A DNA stretch of 48,847 nucleotides from Bacillota bacterium (GTDB taxonomy: Bacteria > Bacillota > Sulfobacillia > JAIMAT01): the NCBI GenBank assembly GCA_029961055.1, contig JASBVM010000027.1, forward strand, positions 1 through 48,847, in the 5' to 3' direction. A program made the position numbers and the translations under genes. Shown here one piece after another: positions 5,828-26,548 of this stretch; the first letter of the stretch is position 1, and the number at the start of each line of letters is the position of its first letter. A model generated the notes under the pieces. The model had not been told where the DNA came from. It worked only from the letters and a program-made list of their open reading frames with translations, and ran no database searches.

Positions 5828-8800
5828 CTACGGCACAATGATAGCAGCCGTACCGTTCTGCCCGCCGTAGGTCACGGTAATTGTCGCGTTACCGGTAGCC
5901 TTGGCGGTCACAAGCCCACTGGGCGTGACCGTGGCCACGCTGCTGTCGCTGCTGGCGTAGGCCGCAACACCAGTCACGTCCTTCGTCACATTGTCGGCGA
6001 ACTTTGCCGTGACCTTCAGCTGCAGCTGCGCACCAGCACTGAGCGTCGCAGAGCTAGGCTGCACCGTGATGCTCTGGAGTTTGTCCAGATCCACCTGCAC
6101 CTGCAGCGTCTGCTGCTTCCCACCGTAGCTCACGGTGATGGTCGCCACGCCAGGACCCGTAGCAGTCACCAGACCCGTGTTGGAGACCGTCGCCACGCTG
6201 GTGTCGTTCGAGGAGTAGCTGGCGCTATCCGTGACGTCTGGCGTGGTGCTGTCCGACAAGTTAGCGGTCACTTTCAACTGTAGCGTCGCACCAGTGGTTA
6301 GACTCACCGGGCTGCTCGGCGTTACGCTGATAGAATTCAGCGTAACGGGTGCGCTTACGCTCACGGTGAACGCTGCTTGCTGCCCGTTGTACCTCACCGT
6401 GATCTGCGCGGTGCCTGCACCAACAGCGGTGACAAGGCCCGCCTGGTTCACGGTCGCAACGCTTTCGTCACTCGAGCTGTAGGAGGCGTATGGAGTCAAG
6501 TCCGCGTAGCCCGGCACGGCCAGGACGCTCAGCTGCGCAGTATCACCTGTTGTCATCTGGTACGGGTGCGTTGCATCGTGTGTATTCCCGTCCGGCCCCT
6601 CCACCGCCAGTCCGGTCACACCTGGCACAGTAACGTCGACCATTGCCACGCTACCACGGTAGCTCACAGTGATCCTCGCGACTCCCGGCTGCTGGGCAGT
6701 CACAAGGCCGGTGGGAGAAACCGTCGCCACAACCGGATTGCTGGAGTTATACCCGGAGATGTCCGTCACGTCCTGGGTCGTGCCGCCCACGGTGGCCGTC
6801 ACCTGGAGCTGGTAAGTGCTACCCTGGTTCAGAGTCAGGCTCGATCCGCTGTTCAGCGTGAGCGAGCTGACCTGCACCGTGCTCAGGATGATCAGCCCGA
6901 CCTGGCCCTTCGAGTTCAGGTAGAGCTCCGCCTTCTGCCCCTTCACTACGCTGGCCAGCGGCAGCTGGTTTGCGAAGCTTGTGTCCGCAGCGTCGAAGAT
7001 CAGCGGCGTGCCCGAGATCACGTACGGGCTCAGGCCCTGCAGCTGCACGTAGCTCGACGTGACCTGCGACACCGTGCCGCTAACGGGCACAAACGCGTTA
7101 TTGTAGCTGGCCACCGAGCTGACGTAGCCGTCACTGCCGACCGTGACATACACAGGCTCACCCACAAGGCCCTGGTCCACCGATACACCGCTACGAAGCG
7201 TGTACGTCGCCGCGGAACCATCGCCCATGGTCACGGTGATCGTCGTCGTGGTACCGCCCGAGCTGCTTGAGGTGGTGTTGATCTTGCTCAGGATGGCGTA
7301 GAAGTCGGTCTGCTGTGCCGAGGTTTGAAGCACCGCCACCGCGTTACCGGAGGCGTCCAGCAGCACCGTCACGTTTGCGCCTACACGGAAGTCGCTAGAA
7401 CCCAGATTGCTGTTAGCGATGTAGATCGCGTTGTCCTGACCGCTGAGCTGCACGTAGGTACCGCTGCTGTCGGACCCGAACGCGGTAACCTGCCCGCTGA
7501 CCGTCTTCGTGGAGACCTTGACCGCCACGGCCGTACCCCTCGTGGAAGGTCCAGCCACGTCGAAGGCGTGCGTCGACGTATTGTAAGGCGTCTCGATCTT
7601 CACTGAGATCGGCTGACCGCTGTGGGCGCTCGAGAAGTCGCTCAACGCCTTCTGGATGTCCGCGACGGCTGCACTCTGCCCGTCCAGCAGGAGCGTCGCG
7701 CCCGTCACGTCGTAGGTGCCCGTCCCGGGTGTCGCCGAGTCGAAGGTCGCAACCCGAATCTCGTCCAGCGTATCCGGCGAGGACGCAGCGGGTGTCGCCT
7801 GCGTCAGGAAGCCACTAAGGTTGTAGCGCGTGACCGCAACATTCGCGGCATTCCCGTTCGAGTCAAGCGTCACCGTCGCGCTGTACGCGCCGCTTGTAAA
7901 GCCCTTCGGCAGACGCTGCAGCTCATCCTGCGTCACCGGCGTGCCGTTGACGGAGTAGGTCGTGTCGCTGGTAACCGGATAGAGCTTGCCGCCTAGGGAG
8001 ATGTAACCATTCCTGGTCGTAGTTGACGCGCTGAAGCCGCTGACGGTCCCGCTCACCACCGACGTTTGCCCGCTAGGCACTATGGTCGTGTACGCACTCG
8101 CGCCGAACGGCCGAAACACGTACACGTCCTGGTTCTGTACCGCGCTAACGTCGGTCGCTGTGGCGAGGTAGACCGTGCCGGCTACGTTCAGGTTCTTGGA
8201 CGGCCAGCTGGGATCCTCGGCCATCACGCCCAGCCATTCGCCGTAAGTCGTGAGTTGCGACTTGTCGCGCTGCTTAGGCTCACCCGTTGTCGGGTTCGTG
8301 TAGTAGATCGAGAGGCCCGCATAGTCCTTGTCGAACGAGCTCGTTGCTGCGTCCCATTTCAAGTTGGTCACGAGGGCGTTGTATGCCATGAAAGCCACGT
8401 CTGCCCGCGTGGCCGGGACGTTTGCCGCCGCGTTCGTAATGCCGTTCAGGAGGCCCAGCTGCTGCGCGACTGCCATGTAGTTCGCCGGCCAGAGCCCCGT
8501 CTGTGCAGCCCCATCGTTCCCGAGGACGCGGATGATCATGGTCGCGGCCTCGGCCTCGGTCACATTATTGGTAGCGCGGAAGGTCCCATCAGGATAGCCC
8601 TTGATGATCCCCAGCGCCGCCGCCGCGTTGACAGCGCCCCAGGCCCAATTCGGAATCGAGTTCGCGTCCTTGAAAGCTGGCGTCTGATTCTGGAGCGAGT
8701 CGGCCACGGCGGCCTTGCCCGCCAAGCGCACCGCCACGGCCGCGAACTCCGCACGCGTGATCTGCTGCGTCGGGTTGGCGTTGCCGTTCTGGTCGCCCTG

Positions 8801-8992
8801 GTAGACGCCCACCGCCGCCAGTGCGTTGAACGCGTTCGCGTACGGATCCGTCGGCTTGACGTCTGAGAACGCGCTTTGCTTGACGGTCGATGCCGCGAAG
8901 GTGGGCATCGGCACGGCCACGAGGCTCAGCGCGAGCGCCAGTACGGTCACGACCGACAGGATCGCGGCGTACCGCTTGTTTCGTGCCTTCAT
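5828..8992 (-). CDS. S-layer-type surface protein with three SLH domains and four Big2 domains
   Basis: A 1054-residue exported protein. It has a signal peptide (about 1-34, ending PTFAA) and three SLH domains (about 42-91, 105-160 and 165-215; the first two carry the DVKPTDPYANAF and DANSIPNWAWGAV starts). SLH domains bind pyruvylated secondary cell-wall polymers. A long beta-rich middle of no recognised family follows (about 220-705), then four C-terminal Big2 immunoglobulin-like repeats (about 709-790, 791-882, 883-968 and 969-1054), each with a SS-D/N-x-VATV-x-x-GLVTA core. The composition (Ser, Thr, Val, Gly, Asn; almost no Cys) and size fit a structural S-layer or cell-wall protein. ATG 8992 is preferred over GTG 9010 because GAGGAGG lies six bases before it. 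Its DNA is less G+C-rich than its neighbours, as is common for abundant surface proteins. Confidence 0.9.
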   Translation of the reverse strand: MKARNKRYAAILSVVTVLALALSLVAVPMPTFAASTVKQSAFSDVKPTDPYANAFNALAAVGVYQGDQNGNANPTQQITRAEFAAVAVRLAGKAAVADSLQNQTPAFKDANSIPNWAWGAVNAAAALGIIKGYPDGTFRATNNVTEAEAATMIIRVLGNDGAAQTGLWPANYMAVAQQLGLLNGITNAAANVPATRADVAFMAYNALVTNLKWDAATSSFDKDYAGLSIYYTNPTTGEPKQRDKSQLTTYGEWLGVMAEDPSWPSKNLNVAGTVYLATATDVSAVQNQDVYVFRPFGASAYTTIVPSGQTSVVSGTVSGFSASTTTRNGYISLGGKLYPVTSDTTYSVNGTPVTQDELQRLPKGFTSGAYSATVTLDSNGNAANVAVTRYNLSGFLTQATPAASSPDTLDEIRVATFDSATPGTGTYDVTGATLLLDGQSAAVADIQKALSDFSSAHSGQPISVKIETPYNTSTHAFDVAGPSTRGTAVAVKVSTKTVSGQVTAFGSDSSGTYVQLSGQDNAIYIANSNLGSSDFRVGANVTVLLDASGNAVAVLQTSAQQTDFYAILSKINTTSSSSGGTTTTITVTMGDGSAATYTLRSGVSVDQGLVGEPVYVTVGSDGYVSSVASYNNAFVPVSGTVSQVTSSYVQLQGLSPYVISGTPLIFDAADTSFANQLPLASVVKGQKAELYLNSKGQVGLIILSTVQVSSLTLNSGSSLTLNQGSTYQLQVTATVGGTTQDVTDISGYNSSNPVVATVSPTGLVTAQQPGVARITVSYRGSVAMVDVTVPGVTGLAVEGPDGNTHDATHPYQMTTGDTAQLSVLAVPGYADLTPYASYSSSDESVATVNQAGLVTAVGAGTAQITVRYNGQQAAFTVSVSAPVTLNSISVTPSSPVSLTTGATLQLKVTANLSDSTTPDVTDSASYSSNDTSVATVSNTGLVTATGPGVATITVSYGGKQQTLQVQVDLDKLQSITVQPSSATLSAGAQLQLKVTAKFADNVTKDVTGVAAYASSDSSVATVTPSGLVTAKATGNATITVTYGGQNGTAAIIVP

Positions 8993-9024
8993 ACGTTTCC
9001 TCCTCGTCACACGCTATGAGGGGC

Positions 9025-9052
9025 TTCTGTCAGTCTGGCCAGACTTACAGAA
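9025..9052. promoter_or_regulatory. 28-nt inverted repeat in the leader of the surface-protein gene
   Basis: Two 14-base arms (TTCTGTCAGTCTGG and CCAGACTTACAGAA) pair with a single mismatch and no spacer; the inner 14 bases are a perfect palindrome. It ends 33 bases before the start codon. With no loop, it reads more like a dimeric-regulator operator than an RNA hairpin, though a cruciform or mRNA-stabilising role is possible. Confidence 0.5.
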
Positions 9053-9311
9053 CAGAATCGGAAGCAACAACGAGGGTCGACGGGACTCATTGCTCATACC
9101 GCACTGCCGTTCTCTGGCCCCTTCCCGCCGATCACCCCCTTCGCCGGGGAGTCCCTTCGGCCGGCGGACGGCCCACGCGCCGGTCCCGCCCGGGACCAGG
9201 CGCCTGACAGAGCCCGCTTGCCAAAGAGCAGCGGCGCAGGCCGATGCCCCTGGGCATCCCTGCCACCGGGACCCATTCTAGCCTAAAACCGTTCACATTC
9301 CAGGTAAGAGG
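9053..9311. other. Long intergenic region between divergent genes
   Basis: No gene is supported here. It should hold the minus-strand promoter and a leader of up to 280 bases for the surface-protein gene. TAGAAT at about 9273-9278 on the minus strand is a possible -10 box but has no good -35. G+C-rich inverted repeats (around 9150-9200) suggest a structured leader. I could not match it to a known riboswitch class. Confidence 0.35.
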
Positions 9312-9332
9312 TACAACTGTAATGCAGTTGTA
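9312..9332. promoter_or_regulatory. Palindromic operator-like site (TACAACTG / CAGTTGTA)
   Basis: A perfect 8-bp inverted repeat, TACAACTG and CAGTTGTA, around a TAATG spacer. The left half reads TACAACTGTA, matching the TACAnnTGTA core of BlaI/MecI/CopY-type winged-helix repressors, and the right half is one base off it. AAGGAGGG follows at 9333-9340, but no reading frame starts behind it. It is A+T-rich in a G+C-rich background. The regulator and target are not identified; the nearest plus-strand gene starts at 9463. Confidence 0.5.
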
Positions 9333-9357
9333 AAGGAGGGGGACGTCGTCTGAGAGG

Positions 9358-9378
9358 GGGCGCTGCCGGGCAGCGCCC
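9358..9378. terminator. Small G+C hairpin upstream of the repeat-protein gene
   Basis: GGGCGCTG, loop CCGGG, CAGCGCCC. It lies between the operator-like palindrome and the start of the repeat protein, where it could act as an attenuator or be the remnant of a terminator. No T-run follows. Confidence 0.35.
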
Positions 9379-9462
9379 ATCCGGCGGGTTCCCCGGGGCC
9401 AAGAGGGGCGGGCATGCTGGCCGTCCAAACTCCTGAGGGGCTGGGTGGCAAGGGGGGTCGCC

Positions 9463-11457
9463 ATGCCGTCGCCGAAAGCTGGGGCACGGGAACGCTGGTC
9501 GCCTGAGCGAATCGTCGAGCGGATCCGGGCCCGGCACGCCGCCGGCCTTGGGCTTGGTGCCGGAGCCGTCGTCCGGGACGACCTCCGGCTGTATCATGCC
9601 GCTTGCAGGCACTTCGGCGGCTGGCACGAGGCGCTGGAAGCCGCTGGGGTGGACCCGGCGGCCGCGCCTCGCCGCCCTCGGGTCACACGCGAGGGCGTGG
9701 CGGCCGAGCTCCGCCGGTGGGCCGAGCGCGCGCCCGTCAAGACCGCCTCCGAGCTCCAGAAGTCCTCCCCTCGCCTCTACATGCGCGCCTACCGTCTCTT
9801 CGGAAGCTGGCGCGCCATTTGTGAGGCGGCCGGTTTTCCTGCCTCCGACCGTACCCGGGGCGGCGAGGGCCCATACGTGACCATGCCGCCGGCCGAGCTC
9901 TATGAGCTTTGGCATACCCTGAGGCCCCGGCCCCTGACGCTCCGTGCCGCCATCGTACGCCGTTTCGGCTCGGTCCAAGGCCTGCGCGACCACCTTGGCA
10001 TCGCAGTCCACTGGACTCCCGAGAAGGTGGCGGCTGCACTCCGCGAGTTCGCCGCCTCCGGGGGACAGGTCACAGTGGACGGGCTCCGCCGCGCAGGTCG
10101 CTCCGGTCTGGCCGCCGCGGCCATGAGGCTCTTCCCCAGCTTCGAGGCCGCGCGCTTGGCCGCAGGAATCGGCCCCGAGGCACCAGGTCCGCTTGACATG
10201 TCCGCCGGCGGCGGCTCGCATGCCTCTTGTCAGCGGCCTCGCGGCAGGTGGACACCTGAGACGGTCGTGGCGGAGCTGCGCGAGTTCGCTCTGTCCGGTC
10301 GTCCTGTAACCAGGACAGAGCTGCGCCGGACCGGGCACGGCGCGCTGGCGTCGGCAGCCTCCAGGCTCTTCGGCAGCTTTGAGCGAGCCAGAGAGGCCGC
10401 CGGGCTCACCGAAGCCCAGGACCCGGCCTCCCGTTGGACCGAGCTCCCCCCTGAAGAGCTTTATGCCCTCTGGCGATCCGCTCGTCCAAGGCCCCGAGGG
10501 TTGCGCCTGGCCATGCGCCGGCGCTTCGGCTCGGTGGCGAACCTCCGGAAGGAGCTCGGCCTGGGCTCGAGGTGGAGTGCGGAGAAGGTGACCGTGGCCC
10601 TCCGCGAATTCGCCCGATTTGGGAGGGCCGTCACGGCCAGTGAGCTCGTCAAGGCCCACCAGTGGGCGCTGCTGGCCGCCGTGTACCGCTACCATGGAAG
10701 CCTGGAAGCCGCCCGTAGAGCCGCAGGGCTTCCCCCTGGTACGCGCCGCGGTCGGGGTTTCAGGCAGGATGCGCAGTCTCTCACCCGCTCGGAGCGGGCA
10801 AAGTTGCAGACGGCCTACGCCCGGTGGGCAGGCCAGGGCCGTTCAAGTCGTCTGGGGCGCCAGATCGAACGGCGCTTCGGTTCCATCCAGCGGTTCGTCG
10901 GGTTCCTCAGCCACGATCGGGTCTGGACGAAGAAGGCCGTGGTCCAGGCCCTGCGGGAACTTGAGCGGAAAGGTCTGCGGGCGGACGCTCGAACGTTGCG
11001 GCGTACGGATAGCGGTCTCTTCTACGCCGTCTACCACCTCTTCGGCTCGCTGGCGGCGGCCCGCCGCGCCGCTGGGGTGGCTGATCCGGTCGACCGACGG
11101 CTGAGAGGACTCCCCTCCGATCTCACCGCCTTGACCCCCCTCCAGCTCTACCGGATACGCTGGGAGCACCCGCGCTCCCGGCGGGTGAAGGCGGAGGTGC
11201 GGAGAAGGTACGGTTCCCTGCGCGCCCTCGAAGCGGCTCAGGGCTTCACCAGCCGCTTGACCGGGGAGCAGGTACTGGCCGGGCTCCGCGAGTGTCTCGG
11301 TCACGGATGCGAGAATGTCGAGACGCTTTGGCGGGATCAACCAAGCCTCGCCGCCTCCGCCGTACGGCTTTTCGGATCCCTTGCGAACGCCTGGAAGCAT
11401 GCGACCCAGGCAGAGGCGGAGTCTCCGGGCGAAGAAACGCTGGATGGACGCCAGTGA
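9463..11457 (+). CDS. Protein made of homing-endonuclease-associated (HTH-like) repeats in two alternating types
   Basis: A 664-residue, Arg- and Ala-rich, probably cytosolic protein with no nuclease or other catalytic domain visible. Repeat type A (about 50 residues, W[TS]xExV..LREFA..G..V....L.....L..A..RLFGS[FW]..AR.AAG) begins near residues 12, 73, 183, 262, 370, 487 and 598. Shorter type B (about 42 residues, LPPEELY.LW....PRPRGL...[MI]RRRFGSV..LR..LG) begins near 140, 327, 440 and 557. The order is A-A-B-A-A-B-A-B-A-B-A. Type A matches the homing-endonuclease-associated/HNH repeat pattern, thought to be a small helical DNA-binding unit. The highly basic character agrees with nucleic-acid binding, which is inference. 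ATG 9463 is preferred to GTG 9445 because AAGGGGGG precedes it. The neighbourhood gives no pathway clue. Confidence 0.75.
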   Translation: MPSPKAGARERWSPERIVERIRARHAAGLGLGAGAVVRDDLRLYHAACRHFGGWHEALEAAGVDPAAAPRRPRVTREGVAAELRRWAERAPVKTASELQKSSPRLYMRAYRLFGSWRAICEAAGFPASDRTRGGEGPYVTMPPAELYELWHTLRPRPLTLRAAIVRRFGSVQGLRDHLGIAVHWTPEKVAAALREFAASGGQVTVDGLRRAGRSGLAAAAMRLFPSFEAARLAAGIGPEAPGPLDMSAGGGSHASCQRPRGRWTPETVVAELREFALSGRPVTRTELRRTGHGALASAASRLFGSFERAREAAGLTEAQDPASRWTELPPEELYALWRSARPRPRGLRLAMRRRFGSVANLRKELGLGSRWSAEKVTVALREFARFGRAVTASELVKAHQWALLAAVYRYHGSLEAARRAAGLPPGTRRGRGFRQDAQSLTRSERAKLQTAYARWAGQGRSSRLGRQIERRFGSIQRFVGFLSHDRVWTKKAVVQALRELERKGLRADARTLRRTDSGLFYAVYHLFGSLAAARRAAGVADPVDRRLRGLPSDLTALTPLQLYRIRWEHPRSRRVKAEVRRRYGSLRALEAAQGFTSRLTGEQVLAGLRECLGHGCENVETLWRDQPSLAASAVRLFGSLANAWKHATQAEAESPGEETLDGRQ

Positions 11458-12124: not shown

Positions 12125-12226
12125 GTTGGGGACGGGATAGGGGGCCAGCCAAGCCGTCGAATTGACAAAGTCTCCCAGAAGTGTTGGGGACGGATTGGGG
12201 ACCGAAGGCTCCGATTGTCCCCAATT
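12125..12226. repeat. Cluster of TTGGGGAC repeats with an inverted copy
   Basis: GTTGGGGACGG occurs at 12125-12135 and again at 12183-12193, followed at once by ATTGGGGAC (12194-12202). The inverted copy GTCCCCAAT lies at 12217-12225, so the last two form a 9-bp stem with a 14-base loop. The wording resembles the ends of REP-like elements moved by Y1 (IS200-like) transposases in other Bacillota; that link is from memory and no transposase gene is present. A further copy lies at the right edge of the window (48731-48752). Confidence 0.5.
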
Positions 12227-12639
12227 CTGGGCACCACTCTACGCGCTGGTCAACGCCGCAAAGCCGCTCAGGACAACGGTTTTCGCCCCTGGCAACGTCA
12301 CCCATTCCGCCCTCGCGAGAAGGGACAGTTCATCGCATCTCTCCCCTGAAATCCTGGTCGGAGGCGGGCTTCCGGCTTCTCAGCCCCCCTGCCGGGGACC
12401 AGCTCGGGGACGGAAGCCATGCCGGCGCCGCTCGCCCGCCCCCGGCCTTTCGCCCAACATTCCACCACCGGTCGGCGGCCTTGGCCACGCGTCCCGCTCC
12501 GGCCGGGGCTGCCGGGCCCGCGGGTGCGGCCCCGCTCCACGGCCCCCCGGCGTTCAGGGGTCGCGCTCGAGGCCGGCACCGGGGCCACGGGCTGTCCGCG
12601 GGCGCGGAAGTGGTGCGGGTGACAGCGAGGACGCGCCGT

Positions 12640-22678: not shown

Positions 22679-23031
22679 GTCAACACCTTCTTTCGCCAGG
22701 CGTAGATCAAGCCGACCACCAGCATGGCGATGAAGACGAGGCCCTCGACCAGAGCGAAGGCCGGGCCGACGCGATGGAAGGCGACGCCCCAGGGGTAGAG
22801 GAAGACGGTCTCCACGTCGAAGACGACGAACATGAGCGCGATCACGTAATAGGCGACGTTGAATTGAACCCGGGCGTCTCCCCGCGGTATGATCCCCGAT
22901 TCGTAGGGCATCCGCTTGCGGGTCTCGGGGTGATCCCGCCGCAGCAGGACCGAGGCGTAGATCATCAGCAGCGCAAAGGCGATGCCGCCGAGGAAGAAGA
23001 ACAAGATGTCCACGTTTGCAGGTTCCGGCAT
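22669..23031 (-). CDS. nuoA: NADH-quinone oxidoreductase subunit A
   Basis: 120 residues with three transmembrane helices. The loop signature [20 protein letters not shown] is followed by [17 protein letters not shown], both typical of NuoA. It is the first gene of the operon. ATG 23031 has AGAGGGG about ten bases upstream and lies about 48 bases after a TATAAT box. Confidence 0.94.
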
Positions 23032-23078
23032 GAAGGTCGCCCCTCTCTACGCCGCCACCCTTTGTTCACACGATCACT

Positions 23079-23084
23079 ATTATA
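23079..23084 (-). promoter_or_regulatory. nuoA: TATAAT box, likely promoter of the nuo operon
   Basis: A perfect TATAAT on the minus strand (23084-23079), overlapping the stop codon of the preceding queG fusion gene and 48 bases before nuoA. No good -35 is present: TGGACA lies 14 bases upstream, and only a poor hexamer sits at 17. A perfect -10 in 70% G+C DNA directly before the operon is unlikely to be chance, and it would place the nuo promoter inside the end of queG. Confidence 0.55.
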
Positions 23085-24771
23085 AAGCCGACCCGGGGTG
23101 TCCACCATCGCCGCCTCCGGCCGCCCGGTCCACCCGGCGGGCGAGGGCGGCCGCCAGGGTGTCCCGCCAGAGGTGGCGCCGGTCGACCAGGCCGCGGGTG
23201 AACCAGCCGACGGCGCCCTCGTGGCTGTTGATCTCCGCGTCCCCGCTCTCCCGCGCCATCAGTTCGCCCAGGGTCCGCCCGGCGCGCAGCGGCTCCAGGA
23301 AGCGCTCGGGCAGCGGCATGGTCAGTCCCCGGGCGCGGGAGACGGAGCCGTCCCGCCCCGCCACCACGCACCAGTTGATCAGCCAGGCGCCGTCGCCGGC
23401 GAGGTCGACGCCCCCCTCCATGCCCACGCCCAGGTCGGCCCAGGGCGCCGCCTCCAGCGCCGCCCGCGCCCGGCCCATGGCACCGCGGAGCGTCTCCTCC
23501 TCCCCGAGGGGCTGCGGGCGGACGCCGCTGGGGACCGCGATCCCCTCCACCCGCGCGCCCGGGCAGAGCCGCTCGAAGACCTCCCGGGCCGCCTCCACCT
23601 TGCTCGGGTTGAGCGAGCCGACGACCACCCCCAGCGGGGAGGAGCGCCGCTCCTGCGCCCAGGCGGCCGCCTCGCGCAGCAGGGGGTCGGGGGAGGCGAG
23701 GCCCCGGCGGAGGGCCGCTTCCTCCCGCGCGCCCCAGGCGGAGCGGGGCAGGTTGCCCAGCGCCAGGAGCGCGTTCCGCCGCAGCGGGCGCGGCCCGCGC
23801 CAGGCGGCGGGCGTCCGTCCGAAGAGGCGCCGGAAGGCTCCGTGGCCCATGGCGGCCACCTCGGCCAGCGGGAGCCGCTCGGGCCGCGCCGGCCAGGGCT
23901 CGCCTCGCGGATGGCCGGCCTTCCGCAGGCGGAGGTTGTAGGGGCAGACTTCCTGGCAGGTGTCGCAGCCCCAGAGCCGGTCGCCCAGGGGGGCACGGAG
24001 CTCCGGCGGCAGGGGCGCCGCCCGCTGGGTCCAGGTGGAGAGACAGCGGTCGGGCCGGAGGAGGCCGTCGCCGAGGAGGGCGCGCGTGGGGCAGGCTTCC
24101 AGGCAGCGCCGGCAGCGCCCGCAACCGCCGGTCGCGGGCGGGTCGGGCGGCAGCTCCACGTCCGTCACCAGGACGCCCAGGACGAGCCAGGAACCGAACT
24201 CGGGCGTGATCAGGCAGCCGTTCCGCCCGACCCAGCCGAGCCCCGCCGCCACCGCCGCCGCCCGCTCGCTGAGCAGGCCGCCGTCGACGCTCGCCCGCCA
24301 GCGGGCGCCGGGCACCTCCGCCTCCAGCCACCGGCCCAGCGCCTCCAGGCGCCGGCGGAGGAGCGGGTGGTAATCCTCGGCGGCGGCGTAGCGGGCGATC
24401 CGGCCGGTGGCGCACTGCGCCGAGGGGGTGGCGGGCTCTCCGGCCGCAGGCCCGGCCGGGGAAGGGCCGGCGGCGGGCCCGTACGGCAGCGCCGCCACCA
24501 GGAGCGAGCGGGCACCGGGCAGGAGCGCGGCGGGGTCGCTCCGCTCCTCCGGCTCGCCGCGGGTGAAGGGGACGTCGATGCCGCGCCGGCGGAGCAGCCG
24601 GAGACGGCGCTGCGCCTCGGGCCAGGCGGCCGCCTCCGCCACGCCCAGGCGGGGCAGGCCGAGGCGGCGCGCCTCGCGGCGGAGGCGCCTCTTCCGCAGC
24701 TCGCCCGCGTTGAGCCGCGGCGAGCCGGGCGGGATAATGTCACCGGGGACTGGACGGATCAAGGCCCTCAT
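23080..24771 (-). CDS. queG: Epoxyqueuosine reductase QueG fused to a DUF84 (YjjX-type inosine/xanthosine triphosphatase) domain
   Basis: 563 residues. About 1-375 is QueG, the cobalamin- and iron-sulfur-dependent enzyme that reduces epoxyqueuosine to queuosine in tRNA. Visible marks are SVDGGLLSERAAAVAAGLGW, VGRNGCLI, the cluster motif CGRCRRCLEACPTRALL, the second motif CDTCQEVCPYN, and a HEAT-like tail (RRNALLALGNL). Residues about 378-563 form a complete DUF84 domain: VVVGSLNPSKVEAAREVF, GVRPQPLGEEETLRGAMGRA, GVGMEGGVDL and INSHEGAVGWFTRG. That family hydrolyses ITP/XTP. The two parts join in frame with no stop or internal ribosome site that I can see. ATG 24771 is tentative, as the conserved region starts about 16 codons later. 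It is head-to-head with the CAP-domain gene and the 5' ends overlap by a few dozen bases if both starts are right. Confidence 0.85.
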   Translation of the reverse strand: MRALIRPVPGDIIPPGSPRLNAGELRKRRLRREARRLGLPRLGVAEAAAWPEAQRRLRLLRRRGIDVPFTRGEPEERSDPAALLPGARSLLVAALPYGPAAGPSPAGPAAGEPATPSAQCATGRIARYAAAEDYHPLLRRRLEALGRWLEAEVPGARWRASVDGGLLSERAAAVAAGLGWVGRNGCLITPEFGSWLVLGVLVTDVELPPDPPATGGCGRCRRCLEACPTRALLGDGLLRPDRCLSTWTQRAAPLPPELRAPLGDRLWGCDTCQEVCPYNLRLRKAGHPRGEPWPARPERLPLAEVAAMGHGAFRRLFGRTPAAWRGPRPLRRNALLALGNLPRSAWGAREEAALRRGLASPDPLLREAAAWAQERRSSPLGVVVGSLNPSKVEAAREVFERLCPGARVEGIAVPSGVRPQPLGEEETLRGAMGRARAALEAAPWADLGVGMEGGVDLAGDGAWLINWCVVAGRDGSVSRARGLTMPLPERFLEPLRAGRTLGELMARESGDAEINSHEGAVGWFTRGLVDRRHLWRDTLAAALARRVDRAAGGGDGGHPGSAL

Positions 24772-26548
24772 CTCCTGCGGACAGGAGGCGCACCGTTCCA
24801 CCTTGCAGCTTCCAGGCGCCTCGCGCCGCACCTCCCCCCATCGTCGCCGGCTTTGGTGGCTCCTGCCCACCGCCCTCGCGGTGGTCGTCCTGCTCGCCCT
24901 CCCCGCCGCCTCGCCGCTCCACCGCCTGCCGGGCGGGGACGCGCCGGCCTCGGGCAGGGCGGGACCGTCGCCCGTCTCCGGCACGGGACCGGTCGAGCCG
25001 GGCCCGCCGCCCCACCAGCGGGAGAGCCCGCAGCCGCCCGCCGGGCCGGCCGAGGGCGGCTTCCGCTATTACCTTCCCCTTCCCAGCGGGACCATCGCCG
25101 TCTCCCGCCCGGAGATCGGCCTCCGGCTGGTGCCGCAGCCCGGCTTCCGCCCCGACCAGGTGCTGGCCGCGCTGGAGCTGGACGGCCGGCCCCTGCCCGC
25201 GGCGGTCCAGCCGGACGGGTGGGTGGGCCACCGGCCACCGGCGCCGCTGCCGCCGGGGTTGCATCACGCCTCCATCTACGTGGCCTACCGGGGTTACTAC
25301 GCCGAGGAGTCCTGGACCTTCCGGGTCCTGACCGGCGCACCGCCGGAACCGCCCGCCCCGGAGGGTGCGGCGCTGGAGCAGGTGGCGCGGCTCAACCGGA
25401 TCCGCGCCGCCCTGGACCTGCCGCCCGTGGCGCCCGACGCCGCCCTGACCGCCGCCGCCCGTTCCCATCTCCTCTACCTCGAGCTGAACCGGCCCGACGG
25501 CCAGCTGGACGCGACCGCCCACGAAGAGGAGCCGGAGGCCCCCGGCTTCACCGGGGCGGGGCCGCTCGACCGCGCCCGCACCTACGGTGCCGTCTGGCCC
25601 GCCGCCCGGGAGGTGATCGAGGCGGGCGCCAGCTCGCCGGCCGGCTCCCTGGCAGCCTGGATGGATTCCATCTACCACCGGATCGCGCTGCTCGACCCCG
25701 GCGCGCGGGCGGCCGGCTACGACCGCGGGCCGCTCCCGGCCGACTCGGACCGGCGCGCCTCGGTGATGGTGCTGGGGGCGGTTCCCGAAGCCGGCCTGGG
25801 CGGGCCGGTGGTCTACCCCGCCGACGGCCAGTTCGGCGTCCCCACCGCCTTCTACCCGGGCGAGGTGCCGGACCCGCTCCGCCTGGTCCCCGGGGCCCGC
25901 TACCCGACCGGCTACCCGATCACCGTCGGCTTCTACGGCAGCACCGTCGAGTCTGTCGTCGTCCGGGCGGCCAGCCTGGCCGACGAGGACGGCAGGCCCG
26001 TCCCCTTCTGGCTGATCACGCCGGGCGACACCTCCGAGGCGCGGACGGAGCTGGAGCAGACGCTGGTCCTGCTGCCCAGGAAGCCGCTGGAGGCGGACCG
26101 GAGTTACGTCTACCAGGTGGACGGGGTCGCCCTCACCGGTACGGGCGCCCGGCCCTTCGCCGTCCGCGCCCGCTTCTCCACGGCAGGCGCGCCGGCCCCC
26201 GAGCCGGGCGGTCCGCCGGTCAGCCTCCAGGGCCGGCCCCTCCCCATCCCGCGCTGGTCGGCGGGCGGGCGCCTGATGGTCCCCTTCCGGGATTTCTTCC
26301 AGGCCCTGGGATGGAAGGTGGTCTGGAACCCCGCCCGGCCCGCGGTGGCGCGCGCCGAGCAGGACGGCCGCTGGATCGAGGTGCGCGGGGAGAGCCTCCG
26401 GTTGGCCTCCTCCGGGGGCTCGCGCTGGATGGCGGTGCCCGCGCGGAGGCTGGGGGACGTCCTCTACGTCCCGCTGCGCGAGGCGGCCGAGGCCGCCGGC
26501 CTCCGGGTGAGCTGGGACCCGGCGGGCCGGGTCCGGCTCTCGCGCTAG
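24737..26548 (+). CDS. Exported CAP-domain protein with C-terminal stalk (copper-amine-oxidase N-like) domain
   Basis: About 603 residues. A hydrophobic segment (about 39-59, LWWLLPTALAVVVLLALP) acts as signal anchor or signal peptide and is followed by a Pro/Gly-rich linker. A beta-rich region (about 110-205) comes next, then a CAP/SCP-like domain (about 211-345; LNRIRAALDLPPVAPDAALT, RSHLLYLELN, WMDSIYHRIALLDPGARAAG). An Ig-like region (about 355-485) and a stalk domain (about 495-603; LMVPFRDFFQALGWKVVWNP, PARRLGDVLYVPLREAAEAA) complete it. CAP and stalk domains are common in surface proteins of Bacillota. The start is uncertain: ATG 24737 has a poor ribosome site, and a TTG near 24815 follows AGGAGG with long spacing. 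Confidence 0.7.
   Translation: MSPGTGRIKALISCGQEAHRSTLQLPGASRRTSPHRRRLWWLLPTALAVVVLLALPAASPLHRLPGGDAPASGRAGPSPVSGTGPVEPGPPPHQRESPQPPAGPAEGGFRYYLPLPSGTIAVSRPEIGLRLVPQPGFRPDQVLAALELDGRPLPAAVQPDGWVGHRPPAPLPPGLHHASIYVAYRGYYAEESWTFRVLTGAPPEPPAPEGAALEQVARLNRIRAALDLPPVAPDAALTAAARSHLLYLELNRPDGQLDATAHEEEPEAPGFTGAGPLDRARTYGAVWPAAREVIEAGASSPAGSLAAWMDSIYHRIALLDPGARAAGYDRGPLPADSDRRASVMVLGAVPEAGLGGPVVYPADGQFGVPTAFYPGEVPDPLRLVPGARYPTGYPITVGFYGSTVESVVVRAASLADEDGRPVPFWLITPGDTSEARTELEQTLVLLPRKPLEADRSYVYQVDGVALTGTGARPFAVRARFSTAGAPAPEPGGPPVSLQGRPLPIPRWSAGGRLMVPFRDFFQALGWKVVWNPARPAVARAEQDGRWIEVRGESLRLASSGGSRWMAVPARRLGDVLYVPLREAAEAAGLRVSWDPAGRVRLSR

Follow-up and report, generated by a model that had tools for sequence, protein, structure and literature searches.

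A nuclease-free array of eleven HNH_repeat units, a candidate modular DNA-binding protein, in a Sulfobacillia genome

The window analysed here (the whole stretch of 48,847 nucleotides, contig JASBVM010000027.1) carries a gene whose product is made up of repeat units of a family named after homing endonucleases, and no nuclease is seen with them. This raises the question of what such an array does. The original prediction, made from the sequence alone, was that two alternating types of unit occur in the protein and that it could read a long DNA site in modular fashion, if each unit contacts DNA. The results presented below make it fairly probable, in our opinion, that this protein is an HNH_repeat array without a nuclease whose several domains bind DNA in a sequence-specific way.

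The array gene and its units

The gene was defined by its open reading frame, by the match of its product to Pfam PF18780 (HNH_repeat, homing endonuclease associated repeat) and by an orthologue in a second genome of the same genus (G001). The frame occupies 670 codons of the plus strand (9445-11457) and has an alternative start at GTG 9445. The likely start is ATG 9463, as had been predicted, since conservation with the orthologue sets in at MPSP.AGARERW and does not extend to the first six residues of the frame. Comparison of the gene with this orthologue gave identities of 0.78/0.77/0.53 at the three codon positions, with no interruption of the frame in either genome. Judged from the two sequences, this is the pattern of a conserved protein and the gene is real. 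An antisense open reading frame that overlaps it (9283-10695) had no Pfam match. The gene and its units are as follows, the three letters given for each A unit being its helix-3 residues.

9463-11457, plus strand: array protein gene, 664 aa from ATG 9463
9493-9657, plus strand: unit A1 (Y, H, C)
9679-9840, plus strand: unit A2 (Y, M, Y)
9883-10008, plus strand: unit B1, three helices, without helix 2
10009-10173, plus strand: unit A3 (A, A, M), abuts B1
10246-10410, plus strand: unit A4 (A, S, S; V, R, Y in the orthologue)
10444-10569, plus strand: unit B2
10570-10734, plus strand: unit A5 (L, A, Y), abuts B2
10780-10917, plus strand: unit B3
10921-11082, plus strand: unit A6 (F, Y, Y), one residue after B3
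11131-11253, plus strand: unit B4
11254-11412, plus strand: unit A7 (A, A, V), abuts B4

Seven A units (about 54 residues) and four B units (41 to 46 residues) follow one another in the order A-A-B-A-A-B-A-B-A-B-A, with the types, number and order that the original prediction had given. When each unit was scored with a profile built from the remaining units of the same type, its orthologue being left out, it reached from 20 to 71 bits, and 999 shuffles per unit reached at most 8 to 15 bits. B1, B2 and B4 abut the next A unit without a linker and B3 is one residue from A6; since the B units are joined to the A units that follow them, an alternative division of the array is A, A, BA, A, BA, BA, BA.

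The whole protein matched HNH_repeat with 59.3 bits (E=4.6e-16, cut-off 26), in agreement with the earlier identification of the A type as the homing-endonuclease-associated repeat, and the A units are members of PF18780. Scored singly, A1 (26.0 bits) and A2 (26.4 bits) reach the curated cut-off, as does A4 in the genome scan (26.6 bits). A3, A5 to A7 and all of the B units were each below the cut-off when scored, so that most units are visible only by internal repetition. These sub-threshold units, the interleaving of B units and the lack of a nuclease distinguish the window protein from PF18780 as it is catalogued; no match to a nuclease family (HNH, GIY-YIG, LAGLIDADG) was found in it with Pfam up to E=1.

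Predicted structure of the units

The whole array was modelled with AlphaFold2 from an alignment of 18 arrays (mean pLDDT 81, pTM 0.33). The units are well defined in this model, with a pLDDT of about 80 to 90 for the A units, while the mutual orientation of the units is not predicted at this pTM. A model of the fragment A4-B2-A5 reached a mean pLDDT of 89. All seven A units were predicted with four helices (H1 of about 13 residues, H2 of 6 to 7, H3 of 10 to 11 and H4 of 7 to 13), among which H2, a turn and H3 are helix-turn-helix-like. All four B units were predicted with H1, H3 and H4 and without H2.

Comparison of the B and A profiles with hhalign gave an E of 1.2e-4 over 24 columns (probability 55%), and the A profile matched the B positions of the orthologue, weakly. 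These two results agree, and according to the model B is a shortened A unit that has no helix 2, and not the second, separate repeat type that had been proposed. The helix-turn-helix expected in the units would correspond, in A, to the predicted H2-turn-H3; the B units, without helix 2, probably do not have a complete one.

The A units aligned end to end with the N-terminal domains of TetR-family proteins in VIA, with Z scores of a range (3 to 5) that is below the usual significance and common for small helical domains: 5.1 for NalC (rmsd 3.9 over 63), 4.6 for TetR (rmsd 2.5 over 56) and 4.2 for NemR. The ribosomal protein uS15, an RNA binder, matched the A units as well as TetR did (Z 3.9). 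Foldseek searches with the whole-array and fragment models gave no match at E<=0.001. We take the recurrent but weak alignments to TetR and uS15 as a hint. The A units resemble the TetR-family N-terminal DNA-binding domain structurally, and weakly, over about 50-60 residues; unlike TetR proteins, the window protein has no Pfam TetR sequence match and no ligand-binding domain, and it is a tandem array and not a dimer.

HNH_repeat proteins of the same class

HNH_repeat matches were found in 38 of the 154 genomes of the class, mostly in arrays of three to four units. Among 29 of the HNH_repeat proteins of these genomes, no match to a nuclease family was obtained at E<=1e-3; domains that do occur in several of them are HTH_31, HTH_3, Sigma70_r4, HTH_23 and PAS. 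The description of the repeats as modules that are normally accessory to HNH nucleases does not fit these proteins. The absence of a nuclease from the window protein stood, as no Pfam nuclease match was obtained, while its status as an oddity did not, nuclease-free arrays being common in the relatives. The haloarchaeal protein WP_143414397.1 (L117:3016-4233) is annotated 'HNH endonuclease' and matched only HNH_repeat in Pfam. Names of this kind seem to have been carried over from the repeat; the name is probably misleading, and many haloarchaeal proteins share it.

The class arrays L019, L020, L023, L058 and L061 and the Brevibacillus protein WP_173600033.1 share the units of the window protein and have a similar start (A-A). 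They have three to four A-type units, fewer than its eleven, and the fourth unit of some class arrays resembles B (14.7 bits to the B profile in L061). Some have a C-terminal Xre HTH with PAS, and the C-terminus is often of the HTH_3 type, which is absent from the window protein. No regular interleaving with short B units was observed in the other arrays that were examined. Direct searches with the array protein gave no match in PDB sequences, phages or NCBIfam, peptide scans of genome contigs and viral contigs found no relative of it, and a search of PHROGs gave one family, of unknown function.

Two other loci of the class were observed. The contig of L105 (G047:C92, 4444 bases), from a MAG of the class, has one open frame of 1388 aa whose HNH_repeats resemble haloarchaeal ones in sequence, and this contig is possibly a contamination. 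At L051 (G137:C180:10054-10149), HNH_repeats and a transposase zinc ribbon (Zn_ribbon_IS1595) are present in one protein.

Variable positions of the Bacillus plasmid arrays

Nuclease-free arrays with many units were found on Bacillus plasmids.

22924-25884 of NZ_CP089149.1 (L103): array of 17 HNH_repeats, WP_104843671.1 (Bacillus subtilis plasmid, 986 aa)
Syntenic loci L110 and L111: arrays of 15 and 14 HNH_repeats, WP_242304685.1 and WP_259608181.1

The other matches in the 17-unit protein only overlap inside its repeats. The 15- and 14-unit arrays are encoded by syntenic genes on sister plasmids, which likewise adjoin an integrase and an HTH gene, and whole units have been lost or recombined between the arrays. 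Column entropy computed over 42 distinct plasmid units showed that these units are near-identical except in a few columns, the most variable inner ones being 24, 30, 31 and 34 (the F of FGS is column 37). By the FGS anchor, columns 30, 31 and 34 fall on the outer face of helix 3 at its start (i, i+1, i+4) and column 24 on one position of helix 2. The pN/pS ratio was 0.85 for columns 24, 30, 31, 32 and 34 and 0.24 elsewhere. Such variability is the pattern that would be expected of one scaffold reading different partners.

Both the plasmid proteins and the window protein are long nuclease-free HNH_repeat arrays, and the helix-3 positions of the former are hypervariable. Unlike the window protein, the plasmid arrays have A-type units only, which are near-identical, lysine-rich and vary in number between plasmids. 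One Bacillus plasmid had 24 HNH_repeat matches across several genes, and 69 plasmid records, many of them haloarchaeal, were similar to one Bacillus array.

Conservation of the array within the genus

The orthologue in G001 is 65% identical to the window protein over its full length, and all 11 units correspond one to one. Identity was 70% in the units, while it was 39% in the linkers. The other genome of the genus that was available, G002, had no array match, an absence that is uncertain because its S-layer contig stops at the S-layer start codon. A fixed number of repeats in homologues, which the original prediction had set against modular recognition, is what was seen in the only orthologue found, with no gain or loss of units between these two genomes. 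The other part of that argument went the opposite way: core positions are conserved and others vary between units, as had been described, and the variation is position-specific.

In the window protein, the FGS anchor places plasmid columns 30, 31 and 34 at A columns 35, 36 and 39. Residues at these three columns differ between units, yet 17 of the 21 are identical between the orthologues, and the three were kept more than the remaining variable columns (p=0.02, a test over 28 columns with seven units and a single pair of orthologues). Part of columns 35 and 39 may be buried. Only in A4 do all three helix-3 residues change together, from A, S, S to V, R, Y in the orthologue. G001 also has further HNH_repeat genes, at L039 (G001:C12:12094-12645) and on G001:C43, one of them of 274 aa, for which there were no corresponding matches in the genome of the window.

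A model of the array and its alternatives

We infer DNA as the ligand of the window protein, helix 3 as the reading helix, a role for the B units and a regulatory function; the fusion of its relatives to HTH_3/HTH_31, Sigma70_r4 or PAS domains was counted in favour of DNA binding. Helix 2, the turn and helix 3 of each A unit would form a helix-turn-helix-like element with helix 3 in the major groove, and the outward helix-3 positions, which precede the F of FGS by seven, six and three residues, would set the base preference of the unit. The very basic B unit, fused to the next A, could be a spacer or a clamp on the DNA backbone. A long composite site would be read by several units in succession, with the protein serving as a transcriptional regulator or a local DNA organiser. 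The modular reading proposed at the outset draws mainly on the plasmid relatives, in which the number of units changes (17, 15 and 14); in the window protein, the helix-3 columns point weakly the same way, at p=0.02, while the unit number is the same in its two orthologues.

The charge of the protein could also be that of an architectural, largely non-specific nucleic-acid binder, in which basic helical beads would coat DNA (or RNA) through the backbone and the differences between units would be drift. The pI is 11.4 for both orthologues, nearly every unit is net positive and the B units carry from +3 to +7; the uS15-like structural matches and the B units without helix 2 would fit as well. 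However, the outward helix-3 residues are kept between the orthologues more than the other variable columns are, and the hypervariability of the plasmid relatives is focused and not spread across the surface, so that we consider such a coat unlikely.

We regard as quite improbable a protein-interaction or RNA-binding scaffold, with helical repeats used like those of TPR or PUF arrays. Relatives are frequently fused to DNA-binding domains, and the strongly basic charge and the helix-turn-helix-like H2-H3 with its TetR-like matches argue against it, although helical repeats are common protein-binding scaffolds, many scaffold proteins are among the weak Foldseek matches to the whole model and the PAS fusions of the relatives suggest signalling. 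A decayed homing-endonuclease remnant, in which DNA-anchoring repeats would have outlived the catalytic domain, is called to mind by the name of PF18780 and is very improbable given the purifying selection, the one-to-one conservation of 11 units, the rule of nuclease-free arrays in the class and the lack of a nuclease match in the open reading frame.

HNH_repeat arrays at large might be previously unrecognised, programmable-like DNA readers of bacteria, archaea and plasmids, a wider and less probable reading that we advance tentatively. They would use a TetR-like helix-turn-helix and not the TALE or zinc-finger fold, would contact a few bases per unit through three helix-3 positions (and one of helix 2) and would evolve by gain, loss and exchange of units. 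The window protein would then be a chromosomal member of the family with shortened units as built-in spacers.

Comparison with known repeat proteins

TALE units have about 34 residues and two helices, while HNH_repeat units of the A type have about 50 residues and four predicted helices. TALE and TALE-like proteins (BurrH, MOrTL, STAR; PMC4066763, PMC11417379) consist of tandem units with a near-constant scaffold and few hypervariable positions, as is seen most clearly in the plasmid HNH_repeat arrays, which are further likened to TALE-like proteins by the change in unit number. The folds differ, and the likeness of the HNH_repeat arrays is put forward without a claim of homology or of a demonstrated base code.

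In the open literature searched, PF18780 was found only in a structure-modelling table, without a structure match (PMC8078820), and no experimental or functional study of any HNH_repeat array was found. HNH_repeat is absent from the main text of a 2024 survey on tandem repeat proteins that bind DNA (PMC11417379). What is new in the window protein is the interleaving of shortened units, the repeat family itself being catalogued but uncharacterised, and a possible new principle would lie in the HNH_repeat family and not in the window protein alone. Should the arrays indeed read DNA one unit at a time, the hypothetical proteins of this widespread family would turn into regulators with readable targets, and protein engineering would gain a new compact scaffold for DNA binding. 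Such unit-by-unit reading is directly testable at the hypervariable columns described above.

The neighbourhood of the array gene

The array gene is alone on the plus strand, convergent with the nuo operon and divergent from a gene for a surface protein.

5828-8992, minus strand: S-layer-homology/Big_2 surface protein (Pfam SLH and Big_2; ATG 8992, ribosome-binding site GAGGAGGA)

The S-layer neighbour is common to G001 while the nuo neighbour is not. We considered and rejected a mobile element, as no adjacent integrase or transposase was seen and the array gene sits between the S-layer gene and the nuo operon.

Comparison of the intergenic region with that of G001 showed that block 8998-9265 is about 97% identical, while the flanking coding DNA is 70-80% identical. 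The block is present in a single copy, contains a 28-bp near-perfect palindrome at 9025-9052 and had no Rfam match. It extends from the S-layer ribosome-binding site to near ATTCTA (TAGAAT on the minus strand) and looks, as far as its sequence tells, like the whole 5' leader of the S-layer mRNA in an extremely conserved form. No promoter was found in the intergenic region with a consensus scan. In a third genome (L102, labelled Chloroflexi), 8998-9075 is conserved (93%), as is a short stretch near 9251-9268, but not the middle; this genome has the same S-layer gene behind the conserved part and no detectable array gene. The block was rejected as the array's own operator because its S-layer-proximal part is kept in this genome without the array gene; at least that part belongs to the S-layer gene, probably as its mRNA leader. 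The rest of the block (9074-9265) is conserved only in the two array-bearing genomes, aside from the short stretch of L102 near 9251-9268, and could have a link to the array gene.

A dispersed element of about 120 bp, without an Rfam match, is located at 12165-12305 of the window. Copies with 77-89% identity are found elsewhere in G000, G001 and G002; the element has GGGGAC/GTCCCC inverted motifs, and one of its copies lies downstream of the array gene in G001 as well.
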